Below the pieces are notes generated by a model that saw only the letters and a program-made list of their open reading frames with translations, was not told where the DNA came from and did no database searches. A DNA stretch of 61,738 nt, taken from assembly GCF_004025965.2 (NCBI RefSeq), contig NZ_SAYU02000018.1, forward strand, positions 1 through 61,738, in the 5' to 3' direction. This DNA is from Phycicoccus flavus. GTDB lineage: Bacteria > Actinomycetota > Actinomycetes > Actinomycetales > Dermatophilaceae. Positions 15,317 to 61,332 of this stretch are shown here, piece after piece; the first letter of the stretch is position 1, and each line of letters opens with the position of its first letter. The position numbers and the translations under genes were made by a program.

Positions 15317-16966
15317 GTGAGCGAGAGCAGCGACGACACCCTCATCGACGAGATCCGGGCCGGCTACGCGTTCGACGGCCCGGCCCTCACCTTCGGCGCC
15401 GCCGTCGCCGACGGCACCGCGCACCCGGACGCGGTCGTCCGCATCCCGCTGTCGGCGATGAACCGCCACGGGCTCGTCGCGGGCGCCACCGGTACCGGCA
15501 AGACCAAGACCCTCCAGCTCATGGCCGAGCAGCTGCTCGCGCAGGGCGTGCCGGTGTTCCTCGCCGACGTCAAGGGCGACCTGTCCGGGATGGCGAGCCC
15601 GGGCACGCCGAACGACCGGATCACGGCGCGCTCGCAGGACGTCGGGCTGGAGTGGAGCCCCACGGCCTACCCGGTGGAGTTCTACTCCCTCGGCGGGCAG
15701 GGCAAGGGCGTGCCGGTGCGGGCGGCGGTGTCGACCTTCGGGCCCACGCTGCTGGCCAAGGTCCTCGGGCTGAACGCCACCCAGGAGTCCAGCCTCGGGC
15801 TCGTCTTCCACTACGCCGACAAGCACGGCTACTACCTCGACACCATCGCCGACCTGCGCGCCGTCGTCCAGCACCTCACCTCGAGCGAGGGCAAGGCCGA
15901 CCTCAAGGAGCTCGGCGGGCTGTCCTCGGCCACCGCGGGTGTCATCCTGCGCGAGCTCATCGCGTTCTCCGACCAGGGGGCCGACGCCTTCTTCGGGCTG
16001 CCGGAGTTCGACACCTCGCACCTGCTGAAGACCGCCGAGGACGGGCGGGGGCTGTGCTCGATGCTCGAGCTGCCGGCCGTGCAGGACCGCCCGCAGCTGT
16101 TCTCGACCTTCCTCATGTGGCTGCTCGCCGACCTCTTCCACGACCTGCCGGAGGTCGGCGACGCCGACCGCCCGAAGCTCGTGTTCTTCTTCGACGAGGC
16201 GCACCTGCTCTTCGCGGACGCCTCCAAGGACTTCCTCGCCGCCATCTCGCAGACCGTCCGGCTCATCCGGTCCAAGGGCGTCGGCGTCTTCTTCGTCACC
16301 CAGTCGCCCAAGGACGTGCCCGCCGATGTCCTCGGGCAGCTCGGCAACCGGGTGCAGCACGCGCTGCGCGCGTTCACCCCGGACGACGCCGCGGCGCTCA
16401 AGGCCGCCGTGAAGACCTACCCGCACACCGCCTACGACCTCGAGGAGCTGCTGACGACGCTCGGCACCGGCGAGGCCGTCGTCACCGTGCTGTCCGAGAA
16501 GGGGGCCCCGACGCCGGTGGCCTGGACCCGGATGCGCGCCCCGGAGTCGCTCATGGCGCCCTCGCCGGACGCCGTCGTCGACGCCGCGGTCGCGGCCTCG
16601 CCGCTGCTCGGCGAGTACGGGCAGCCGGTCGAGCGGGACAGCGCCCTCGAGATGCTGGGGCGCGCGGCGGACGAGCGGGTGGCCGCCGAGGAGGCCGCGA
16701 GCGCCGCGGAGGAGAAGGCGAAGGCCGACGCCGCGGCGGCGAAGGAGGCCGAGAAGGCCCGGGCCGCCGCCGACAAGGCCGCGGCCAAGGAGCGCGCCGC
16801 CGCCGAGAAGGCCGCCGCGTCCGCCGCCCGCCGGAAGGCGGCCGAGCCGGGGATGGTCGAGCAGGTCGTGAAGTCCTCGGCCTTCCGGTCGGCGCTGCGC
16901 TCGGCCGGCACCGTCATCGGCCGGGAGATCACCCGCTCCCTCTTCGGCACCTCCCGCCGCCGCTGA
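15317..16966 (+). CDS. HerA/YjgR-like helicase domain ATPase (DUF853)
   Basis: A 549-residue P-loop ATPase. Walker A GATGTGKTK is near residue 57, followed by VFLADVKGDLSGMA, which is typical of YjgR. Walker B is PKLVFFFDEAHLLFADA near residue 290, and a sensor/arginine region is VRLIRSKGVGVFFVTQSPKDVP. The last ~100 residues include a long Ala/Lys/Glu-rich coiled segment (about 455-510) and a basic tail ending SLFGTSRRR. HerA-type proteins pump or remodel DNA, but the YjgR branch has no assigned role. The GTG at 15317 is chosen over an in-frame GTG at 15296 because TAGATT lies at the right distance for a leaderless start. Confidence 0.85.
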   Translation: MSESSDDTLIDEIRAGYAFDGPALTFGAAVADGTAHPDAVVRIPLSAMNRHGLVAGATGTGKTKTLQLMAEQLLAQGVPVFLADVKGDLSGMASPGTPNDRITARSQDVGLEWSPTAYPVEFYSLGGQGKGVPVRAAVSTFGPTLLAKVLGLNATQESSLGLVFHYADKHGYYLDTIADLRAVVQHLTSSEGKADLKELGGLSSATAGVILRELIAFSDQGADAFFGLPEFDTSHLLKTAEDGRGLCSMLELPAVQDRPQLFSTFLMWLLADLFHDLPEVGDADRPKLVFFFDEAHLLFADASKDFLAAISQTVRLIRSKGVGVFFVTQSPKDVPADVLGQLGNRVQHALRAFTPDDAAALKAAVKTYPHTAYDLEELLTTLGTGEAVVTVLSEKGAPTPVAWTRMRAPESLMAPSPDAVVDAAVAASPLLGEYGQPVERDSALEMLGRAADERVAAEEAASAAEEKAKADAAAAKEAEKARAAADKAAAKERAAAEKAAASAARRKAAEPGMVEQVVKSSAFRSALRSAGTVIGREITRSLFGTSRRR

Positions 16967-16992
16967 CCCCACACCGCCCCCGCGCGCGACCC

Positions 16993-17600
16993 GACGACAC
17001 CCCCAGCCCAAACCCGGCATGTCCCGCCAGCTGCGACGCCCGCGAGGGTCATCGTGTCGTCCACCGTCGCGTCACCCGCTTTCCGGTCCCCGCCGCGTCC
17101 CCCGCCTCCCGGTCGTCCCAGGCGTAACTGCTCCTTCTGCTCGCCGGAGTCATCAGGCGTCGTCGCCTACGAGCGGACGACACGTCCAGCCCGAGCCCGG
17201 CGTGTCCCGGCCGTTGCGAGGTCCGGGAGGGTCATCGTGTCGTCCCCCCGTCGCCTCGCCCGTCTTCCGGTTCCCCGCCGCGTCCCCGGCCTCCCGGTCA
17301 TCCCCGGCGTGCCTGCTCCTTCTGCTCGCGGGAGTCACCTGCTGTCGTCGCTGTCGAGCGGACGACACGTCCAGACAGACGCCCGCGTGTCCTGCGTTCT
17401 GGGGAGCCGCCGGGGGTCATCGTGTCGTCCCCCCGTTCGCCTAGCCCAGCCCCGGTTCCCCGCCTCCCGGTCGTCCCAAGCGCGTCACCCTTCTCCTCGC
17501 TGGAGTCATCAGACCTCGTCACCTGCGAGCGGACGACACGTCCAGCCCGAGCCCGGCGTGTCCTGCGTTCTGGGGAGCCGCCGAGGGTGGCCGTGTCGTC
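16993..17600. repeat. Array A: four copies of a 69-bp inverted-repeat element
   Basis: This fills the gene-free gap 16967-17618. Each copy is 69 bp and bounded by GACGACACG and CGTGTCGTC: 16993-17061 (left arm degenerate), 17176-17244, 17361-17429, 17532-17600. Inside, a GCGTGTC-type motif recurs 24 bases from the left end. The spacers are also related (CTCCTTCTGCTCGCsGGAGTCA is partly conserved), so the whole is a tandem repeat with a period of 171-185 bp. It ends 18 bases from the stop of the DUF559 gene. No reading frame is convincing here. Confidence 0.8.
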
Positions 17601-17618
17601 GGCTCGCCGTCCGGTTCG

Positions 17619-18503
17619 TCAGCTGATCGCGCAGATGAGGCAGCGGGTCCGGAGGGCGACGGCGCGCTCGAGAAGGCGACGCACCCGCTCGGGCTCGTGC
17701 ATGGCCATCCGCCACGGCACCCGGATGACGATCCAGCCGTCGCAGGTCAGGCGCGAGTAGCGCTCGCAGTCCCGGGCGAAGTCCGCGGCGCCGGCGTGGA
17801 AGGCGTGCGAGTCGGCCTCGATGACGATGCGCAGCCGCTCGTCCGCGAGGTCGACCCGACCGACGAAGCCGTCCGCGTCACGGATCGCCACCTGGGGGCG
17901 CACGTCCAGCCCCGGGACGTCGAGGGCGATGGCGCGCAGGACGGTCTCGAAGGGTCCGAAGGCCAGGTCGCTGCCGCAGTCCAGGACCCGCTGGATCCGG
18001 GGCCGCATGCGGGGCGGCACCTCGGTGAGGTCGTGCAGGTCCACCGGGGACACGTCGCCGAAACGCAGGGCCGAGTCGAGGACGCACAGGGCCTCGTCGA
18101 AGGGCAGCAGCGCGGCGCAGTCGTGCACGGTCCGGGCCTTGGAGGTGACCCAGCCGTCGACCCGTTGAGCCGGCGGGACGCTCCGCCACCGGATGTCGAC
18201 CTCTCGCTGGACGTCGGCTGGGACCTTGCGCCCGCGCGGGACCGCCACCTGGGGGAGACCCGCAGGGACCTTCGTGGCCCAGCCCCAGTGGGCGGCGGCG
18301 CTCAGGAGGACGACCGTCCCGGACAGGCGATGCGCCGCGGCGCGCGCCTCGTCGTCGGTCGGCAGGGCGTAACGGCCGCGCGCGACCCGTCGCACCGTGC
18401 CGGCGGCGACCGCGGCCTCGAGCGCGGCCCGCCCGGCGCACGCCTCGAGCTCGTGGCGCCGGGCGACACCGCCGAGCCGCGTCAGGTGCTCTGCGACTCG
18501 CAT
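17619..18503 (-). CDS. AbiEi-type N-terminus plus DUF559 (PD-D/ExK nuclease-like) protein
   Basis: A 294-residue protein. Residues 1-60 form a winged-helix-like AbiEi-antitoxin N-terminal region (LTRLGGVARRHELE, VAAGTVRRVARGRYALP). The C-terminal ~110 residues match DUF559, a VSR-like endonuclease fold: VGRVDLADERLRIVIEADSHAFH (the Asp and ExD-type positions), DCERYSRLTCDGWIVIRV. Such genes are common and multi-copy in actinobacteria, function unknown. The ATG at 18503 is the only good start before the domain; the frame stays open upstream only through repeats. It lies between two arrays of the 69-bp element, four copies on each side, which suggests a functional link (inference). Confidence 0.75.
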   Translation of the reverse strand: MRVAEHLTRLGGVARRHELEACAGRAALEAAVAAGTVRRVARGRYALPTDDEARAAAHRLSGTVVLLSAAAHWGWATKVPAGLPQVAVPRGRKVPADVQREVDIRWRSVPPAQRVDGWVTSKARTVHDCAALLPFDEALCVLDSALRFGDVSPVDLHDLTEVPPRMRPRIQRVLDCGSDLAFGPFETVLRAIALDVPGLDVRPQVAIRDADGFVGRVDLADERLRIVIEADSHAFHAGAADFARDCERYSRLTCDGWIVIRVPWRMAMHEPERVRRLLERAVALRTRCLICAIS

Positions 18504-18576
18504 GCCCGCCAGTGTGGTCCGCCGACGCGATTCCGGTCCGGCGTCATCCACAGGCCCCCGGCGGCCTCGACCAGCG

Positions 18577-19040
18577 GACGACACGTCCAGCGGGGAAACG
18601 GCATGTCGGTGGGGGTGTGGCGGCTGGTGGGTGGCGTCGTGTCGTCGGCTCGTCGTCCCGCCGGCGTGTCCTGGCCGGTTGTCGACAGGGCAGCTCTGCC
18701 GTCCAGCGGACGACACGTCCAGCGGGGGAACGGCGTGGCGGTGGGGGTGTGGTGGCTGGCGGGGGCGTCGTGTCGTCCGCCGGTCGTCCCGCCGGCTCGT
18801 CCTGGCTGGCTGTCGACAGGGCAGCGCCGCCGTCCAGCGGACGACACGTGCAGCGGGGGATCGGTGTGTCGGTGGGGGTGTGGTGGCTGGTGGGGGGCGT
18901 CGTGTCGTCCGTTCGTCGTCCCGCCGGCGTGTCCTGGCTGGCTGTCGACAGGGCAGCCCTGCCGTCCAGCGGACGACACGTGCAGCGGGGGAACGGCGTG
19001 TCGGTGAGGGTGCGGTGGCTGGTGGGGGAGTCGTGTCGTC
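18577..19040. repeat. Array B: four copies of the same 69-70-bp element in 131-bp tandem units
   Basis: This fills the gene-free gap 18504-19072. Copies lie at 18577-18646, 18709-18777, 18840-18909 and 18972-19040, all with intact GACGACACG/CGTGTCGTC ends and the GCGTGTC-like motif at the same offset. Unit spacing is 132, 131 and 132 bp, and the spacer (including TGTCGACAGGGCAG) is repeated too. Because 131 is not a multiple of three, the open frame running through it is not a coding repeat. The interior differs from array A, but the ends and the internal motif agree. Confidence 0.8.
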
Positions 19041-19072
19041 TGCCCGCCCCCGACGTCCGGCTGGCGGGTGGG

Positions 19073-19468
19073 TTAGAGGGCCAGGACGGCGCGGGCGTAG
19101 GCGCACTCGAGGTCTGGGTCCTGGACCATCCGCTCCTCGCCGCCGGGCTCGGGGGTGAAGGTCACCTCCCACGCCTCGTCGGTGCGCCGCACGCTGACGA
19201 GGCGGTTGCCGATCAGCCCGCGCAGCTGGTCCTCTCGGGGCAGCCACAGCGCCTGGTCCAGCGTCACCGAGTCCAGCGCCCACTCCGTCGTCCCGTTGAA
19301 GCCGAGCAGCGACTGGCCGCCGTAGTGGTGGACCTCGACGGTGAGGTCGGAGATCCAGAAGACGTCCTCCGTGAGCAGCTCGGTGTCGATGACGAACCGG
19401 TCGCCGGCGGCGGGCTCCCAGAGCACCCCCGTGGCGGCGAGGTCGCGGGCCAGCTGGTTCGAGATCAC
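19073..19468 (-). CDS. Conserved actinobacterial protein of unknown function (sometimes misnamed CpaE)
   Basis: A 131-residue soluble protein beginning MISNQLARDLAATGVLWEPAAGDRFVI. The stretches VFWISDLTVEVHHY, GFNGTTEWALDSV and ALWLPREDQLRGLIG are strongly conserved in actinobacterial relatives as I remember them; some are labelled pilus assembly protein CpaE, but no ATPase motif is present. The GTG at 19468 has GAGGAT about ten bases upstream. It is flanked by repeat arrays on both sides and has no operon partner. Function unknown. Confidence 0.7.
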   Translation of the reverse strand: MISNQLARDLAATGVLWEPAAGDRFVIDTELLTEDVFWISDLTVEVHHYGGQSLLGFNGTTEWALDSVTLDQALWLPREDQLRGLIGNRLVSVRRTDEAWEVTFTPEPGGEERMVQDPDLECAYARAVLAL

Positions 19469-19600
19469 GCCCCCATCCTCACAAGAGGACGGCGTCCGCG
19501 GAAACCCCGGGGCGATCCGCTCTGCCCGCGCGAGGACGCGTGTGAGGCGGCAGCGGATGTGCGGCGAGTTCACACGCGTCCGCAAGGGGTAGGTCGGGGT

Positions 19601-61263: not shown

Positions 61264-61332
61264 GACGACACGCTGCGGCGGCGGGTGCGCCGGCTCGGCC
61301 GGACACGCCGCGTCCCGGCCCTGCGTGTCGTC
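61264..61332. repeat. Solo copy of the 69-bp inverted-repeat element
   Basis: It has intact GACGACACG (61264-61272) and CGTGTCGTC (61324-61332) ends and exactly 69 bp. Read on the minus strand, the CGGCGTGTCC motif falls at the same offset (22 bases) as in the 17-kb array, so it is in the opposite orientation. It lies in the gap 61232-61428, where nothing else is evident. Confidence 0.75.

Follow-up and report, generated by a model that had tools for sequence, protein, structure and literature searches.

Dispersed palindromes bracketing an AbiEi/DUF559-type nuclease gene in Phycicoccus flavus suggest a new kind of self-spreading repeat system

What connects a family of short inverted-repeat elements to the single nuclease-like gene that they enclose is the question raised by this locus of Phycicoccus flavus. 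The window, by which we mean the whole stretch of DNA analysed (contig NZ_SAYU02000018.1), is 61,738 nucleotides long. An earlier note on it had described eight elements of 69 or 70 bp flanking the gene and a ninth far off, and had compared them to REP elements and their RAYT enzymes. The window was searched with the pattern GACGACACG-N45..60-CGTGTCGTC, which gave 8 exact matches, each 69 or 70 bp long, as compared to a mean of 0.01 in 100 shuffled controls. Together with one copy carrying a single mismatch in its left arm, these are the nine elements of the earlier description, including its remark that only the first left arm is degenerate. Four copies lie downstream of the gene (17619-18503, minus strand), at 16993-17061 (the copy with the mismatch), 17176-17244, 17361-17429 and 17532-17600; the last adjoins the gene's stop codon and forms, with its outer arms, a palindrome from 17525 to 17607. 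Four more lie upstream, at 18577-18646 (18568-18655 with its outer arms), 18709-18777, 18840-18909 and 18972-19040. All eight are on the plus strand, and the solitary ninth copy, at 61264-61332, has its centre box on the minus strand.

A CGGCGTGTC-like box begins 22 bases into all nine copies of the window, once the copy at 61264 is reversed. The fixed offset noted before holds here. On the other contigs the best match begins at an offset of 22-23 or of 32-34 bases, and two copies on contig C84 match poorly. Two features had been overlooked: the repeating unit of the arrays is the element plus its spacer, and pairing continues outward past the nine-base arms. In many copies the stem is prolonged beyond one mispaired position, which in the 40 copies of the P. 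flavus genome (G000) is C.C in 24 and G.G in 5. This position is paired at a frequency of 0.22, vs. 0.37 in shuffles, and the bases farther out are mostly paired. The RNA folds predicted for the elements are strong, as would be expected if the hairpins served transcription termination, RNA stability or chromosome folding; an Rfam search of positions 16500-19500, which gave no match up to E=1, speaks against this explanation, to which we return below.

The gene between the arrays encodes a protein of 294 aa that, by profile matches, combines an AbiEi-like N-terminal part with an MTES_1575/DUF559 nuclease domain. When 19 residues preceding the ATG were included in the query, Pfam returned MTES_1575 (7.4e-6), DUF559 (0.0034) and AbiEi_4 (0.0072), all below the curated cut-offs, and with the 294-aa protein itself only the first two were matched at E<=0.01. 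The best PADLOC AbiEi model matched this protein at 3.4e-8. Among 27 aligned homologues MTES_1575 (PF18741) was found in 26, DUF559 in 25 and AbiEi_4 in 13, and one PADLOC AbiEi model matched 26 of the 27. In a wider alignment of 89 homologues R190, Q204, D218, H236, D245 and R248 are invariant (1.00), and E186 and E229 are nearly so (0.99). These eight are putative catalytic residues; those expected for a PD-(D/E)XK-type, Vsr-like site are conserved, and the protein is predicted to be a nuclease. A sequence profile search of the PDB returned 3hrl alone (E 0.039). Structure prediction from two sequences reached a mean pLDDT of 53.1, too poor for a fold search, with the first 50 residues (block means 65-78) predicted as helix-strand-helix-helix-strand-strand. 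The neighbours of the gene in the window are a HerA helicase gene and an ORF without Pfam match, and no AbiEii-type toxin gene is adjacent to it. A search of the whole genome for the HUH Y1 transposase domain (PF01797) gave no match, while control genomes were positive.

The element family extends well beyond this locus. The assembly (4.26 Mb, 153 contigs) holds 35 exact copies of 68-71 bp on 11 contigs (25 of 69 bp, eight of 70 bp, one of 71 bp and one of 68 bp) and a backwards-read control none, so that the nine copies counted earlier fall far short of the genome total. When one arm mismatch was allowed, the stretches that were read contained 40 copies. By our own crude gene caller, 39 of the 40 are intergenic and the remaining one, on contig C8, reaches into a gene at its 3' end. 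The neighbouring genes of the 40, many of which are in arrays, are convergent in 14 cases, codirectional in 19, divergent in 4 and undetermined in 3. The exact copies fall in 12 places, if both arrays round the window gene are counted as one, and only one of these is near a DUF559 gene; likewise, one of the six DUF559 matches in the genome lies near an element place. With 153 contigs, links across contig ends are invisible and some neighbourhoods of DUF559 genes are hidden. Judged by distance within this genome alone, the proposed pairing of repeat and nuclease gene would have looked disproved. Among 57 relatives the arm pattern was found three times in G002 and once in G010 (70-72 bp), and a single match of 82 bp in G043 looks like chance. 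G010 belongs to the same genus, and no close orthologue of the window gene was found in it. The G002 homologue is 69% identical to the window protein, with the end of an element lying 35 bp away from the match.

A different picture emerged from comparison across species. Of the 186 same-family genomes searched (own genome included), 120 gave a hit with the window protein at E<=1e-8, and at 30 loci where the flanks were read we observed, among the flanks listed, palindromes with different arms. Palindromes were next scored blind to sequence in 90 same-family loci, with a threshold of >=13 (>=12 for geometry and arm comparison). The downstream window first began at the stop codon and gave 12/90; since the palindromes overlap the gene end, it was shifted 120 bp into the gene after this first look, and the shifted settings were then applied unchanged to the controls and to a set of distant loci. 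At a score of >=13 palindromes were found upstream in 47/90 loci, downstream in 44/90, on either side in 62/90 and on both sides in 29/90. In far windows of the same loci, about 600-860 bp away, there were none (0/89), in dinucleotide shuffles 4/450, and of 148 control genes of G000 six had a palindrome. The distant loci gave 16/28 under identical settings, as compared to 1/26 for far windows and 1/140 for shuffles. No palindrome reached the threshold in 28 of the 90 same-family and 12 of the 28 distant loci. The two flanks of one locus shared sequence in 56/90 cases, vs. 320/8010 for flanks of different loci and 12/148 for control genes, and in the distant set in 16/28. Bracketing by two cognate palindromes, with four copies per side at the window gene, is thus found at many homologue loci, though not at all. 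The pairing proposed by analogy to REP and RAYT has good support from the comparison of species, but neither from the distance test within G000 nor down to the level of mechanism.

The geometry of the flanks invites another explanation. Of the 53 upstream palindromes with a score of >=12, 39 have their end 48-68 bp ahead of the gene start that our script had picked, a position that would suit an operator through which an AbiEi-like protein represses its own gene, the dispersed copies then being a regulon or passive. PMC3985639 reports that AbiEi binds in its own promoter an 11-bp inverted repeat with 27 bp spacing, which can be extended to 23 bp with 4 mismatches, and the PADLOC AbiEi model that matches nearly all homologues (26/27) favours the same reading. 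What repression would not predict are the arrays and the palindromes at the 3' end of the gene (44/90), where 45 of 48 downstream palindromes scoring >=12 begin between -65 and +17 relative to the stop.

Comparison of arms between loci revealed a second regularity. When the 64 loci that have a palindrome scoring >=12 were compared, 107 of 124 pairs with at least 55% protein identity had arms in common, vs. 11 of 1892 pairs below that value. Common arms in close orthologues may simply be inherited. More weight attaches to two other facts: paralogues within a genome differ, as only one of 14 within-genome paralogue pairs shares arms and that pair is 70% identical, and dispersed copies match the flanks of the gene in their own genome. 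A HerA helicase gene adjoins the homologue in five of the ten loci checked (L109, L110, L111, L115 and L116), and the arms differ among these five; with the same neighbour yet different arms, the arms appear to have been changed in place. One of them, L111 of genome G004, encodes a protein 66% identical to that of the window, and its own arms occur at 8 places in G004, 4 of them at its gene, and nowhere in the 11 other genomes of its genus that were searched. As to which domain sets the specificity for the arms, the AUC was 0.954 for residues 1-110, 0.943 for residues 111-180 and 0.958 for the rest. The palindrome arms track the protein rather than the genome, and palindrome and protein co-evolve.

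A second pair of this kind is present in P. flavus itself. The DUF559 gene on contig C99 (L139:4560-5462) is bracketed by a compact palindrome family within the region C99:80459-81519 (L139:4457-5526). One palindrome ends 55 bp before the start and the other begins 10 bp after the stop, with identical arms. G000 carries 12 copies of this palindrome. Within its genus, six more genomes have 2-22 copies (22 in G009), and the pattern was absent from another five. Two further palindromes that do not bracket the gene were seen at threshold in each of L139 and L142, one of them inside the C99 gene. Around the DUF559 gene on contig C66, palindromes of like sequence lie farther out, about 217 bp upstream of a likely start and 481 bp downstream of the stop, the gene on contig C33 has a palindrome on one side, and for two of the six DUF559 genes of G000, in stretches near contig ends, no palindrome was found.

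A scan of the named genomes with the arm pattern gave 73 stretches, many of them chance-like. Of 83 stretches tested, only 2 contain a homologue of the window protein, and these two stem from a single gene of G002. Pairing that extends outward beyond the arms was seen in stretches from Marinobacter (L045, L070, L092 and L103), Planctomycetota (L056 and L099) and Bacteroidota (L068), and no homologue of the window protein lies within these stretches. Several closely spaced GACGACACG and CGTGTCGTC motifs occur in five Amycolatopsis stretches (L041, L067, L071, L083 and L086), and five stretches from viral contigs, looked at as sequence only, also carry the arm pattern. In other phyla, GxxExxY genes may also lie between palindromes of a similar kind.

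Dispersal in the genome that carries the gene could be followed in another genus of the set, g61. The arms of its gene recur as pairs with near-constant spacing in 13 of 16 genomes (1-13 copies each; control 0). With a cut-off for close orthologues of E<1e-70, which was chosen afterwards, copies are present in 12/12 genomes with an orthologue and 1/4 without (one-sided Fisher 0.007), and copies away from the gene in 11/12 and 1/4, respectively (one-sided Fisher 0.027), where both values ignore the kinship of these related genomes. The exception is G112 (79% complete), which has 4 copies and in which no close orthologue was found; the other three genomes without orthologue have no copies. The presence test loses force through this exception and through the common ancestry of the genomes. 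Of the 42 dispersed copies 41 are intergenic, as compared to 250 of 2900 random windows, and their neighbours are convergent in 20 cases, codirectional in 19 and divergent in 3, so the copies avoid divergent promoter regions. The two arms covary (0.723 paired vs. 0.659, sd 0.009, in shuffles), mainly at seven positions and with a value that kinship of the copies may inflate, whereas no covariation was detected in the G000 copies (0.678 vs. 0.686). Close to the middle of many g61 copies, e.g. L265 and L287, there is a further palindrome, such as AACCCCGGAATTCCGGGGTT.

These data bear on both explanations raised above. Within one copy, the two halves of an operator would have no need to covary, yet they do in g61, and a regulon would hardly be expected to shun divergent regions (3/42), and we therefore think it unlikely that the palindromes are operators and nothing else. 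For a role in RNA or in the nucleoid, the compensating changes in the arms would fit well, as would the frequent placement of copies at 3' ends or between genes that converge. Such a role does not explain why palindromes bracket one gene family and have lineage-specific arms; it is very improbable as the whole explanation and may instead be a side effect of a REP-like system.

Fixed length and inverted ends also raise the possibility of ordinary MITEs, that is, palindromes moved by an unrelated transposase with the nuclease gene merely captured between them. Element-free places in relatives, which a MITE would leave, were indeed found, in comparisons between species and not as polymorphisms between strains. 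For the array on contig C66, only G001 among 11 relatives has both neighbouring genes side by side, with 24 bp between the aligned parts and no element. At the solitary copy on contig C110 the aligned parts are 0-19 bp apart in G006, G007 and G009 vs. 110-124 bp in G000, and in the remaining relatives that possess both genes the gap amounts to at least several hundred bp. On contig C116 only G008 keeps the genes together, with 31 bp vs. 148. At the gene to the right of the C66 array (L220-L229), other palindromes were seen in some of nine further relatives, with scores of >=13 in three of them and of 11 in two. Direct repeats near the ends of a copy, of 13 bp at the C110 copy and 10 bp at one g61 copy, would likewise suit a MITE. 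However, no general target-site duplication was found: in g61 there is no clear excess (3.9 vs. 3.69, sd 0.14, and similar in wider windows), and the excess of direct repeats in G000 (5.1 vs. 4.13, sd 0.18) includes array units, which are repetitive anyway. Moreover, capture would have to recur at many loci with matching lineage-specific arms, which makes this explanation highly unlikely. The element-free sites in relatives lend probability to the earlier view of the element as a mobilised or processed unit.

Taken together, the 69-bp elements are probably non-autonomous, REP-like palindromes and cognate to the nuclease gene between them, an explanation in which we place moderate confidence and in which binding, cutting and movement by the protein are inferred. 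In such a system the arms would be recognised by the AbiEi-like N-terminal part, and a hairpin or cruciform would be nicked or cut by the Vsr-like nuclease domain. Repair or copying of the processed palindrome could then place new copies elsewhere, and the arrays would be built through tandem duplication of element plus spacer. Since the promoter of AbiEi contains a wide inverted repeat to which the protein itself binds (PMC3985639), the upstream copy may also be an operator that limits expression.

REP-type palindromes have the HUH-type RAYT as their known partner enzyme, and a RAYT/REPtron hairpin is 20-40 bp long, GTAG-tagged and often present in >100 copies. RAYT genes are described in PMC2817692 as flanked by inverted REPs with which they co-evolve, with REP copy number following gene presence and with arrays. 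The system described here resembles REP/BIME-RAYT in having a gene between two inverted palindromes, co-evolution and arrays. In 29 of 40 G000 copies one position of the stem is a C.C or G.G mispair, reminiscent of the unpaired state in the REP stem that E. coli TnpA-REP requires (PMC8266576). Unlike a RAYT, the protein is a predicted Vsr-like nuclease and not an HUH enzyme (no Y1 match in G000), and unlike REPs the elements are 68-71 bp long, have GACGACACG arms without GTAG at the arm ends and occur in tens of copies (35 exact) rather than hundreds. The system is thus REPtron-like in anatomy, yet it is not a REPtron, as both the HUH enzyme and the short GTAG-tagged hairpin are missing. The AbiE type IV toxin-antitoxin system is similar in the AbiEi-like N-terminal part and in its wide upstream inverted repeat (compare PMC3985639), but here the C-terminal half is a nuclease domain and the neighbours in the window are the HerA helicase gene and the ORF without Pfam match. 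CGTC-tagged REPs, extragenic palindromes that end in CGTC and reportedly lack a dedicated transposase, have 8-9 bp stems and 4-5 nt loops, and the available part of PMC3733652 names five phyla, Actinomycetota not among them; by this description they differ from the window family, whose arms of 9 bp or more enclose about 51 bp. The MTES_1575 domain was introduced as a novel Vsr REase within a large HEPN fusion protein (PMC3710099, in part). The same domain (PF18741) is found in 26/27 homologues of the window protein, the HEPN fusion being a feature of the protein in that paper. A word search of the accessible text of PMC3710099 found neither palindromes nor AbiEi mentioned, and one of a 2025 REP survey (PMC12306157, available text) found no RAYT, nuclease, DUF or AbiEi. 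In the open-licence literature, by title and the start of the abstract, none of the matches listed linked these proteins to dispersed palindromes.

Our results suggest a new kind of self-spreading repeat system. It might be that the Actinomycetes harbour an undescribed class of AbiEi-type/Vsr-like nucleases, each owning, recognising and spreading a private hairpin family, a RAYT-like life without HUH chemistry, although we consider this general form just as apt to fail as to hold. Several pairs per genome would be possible, and G000 holds two, the 69-bp family and the compact family round the C99 gene. If true, a REP-type way of life would have arisen more than once, the other time with a nuclease of another fold, and some of the actinomycete proteins annotated as DUF559 or AbiEi would gain a role. 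The family would then also offer many separate protein-palindrome pairs for direct tests of recognition and spreading.
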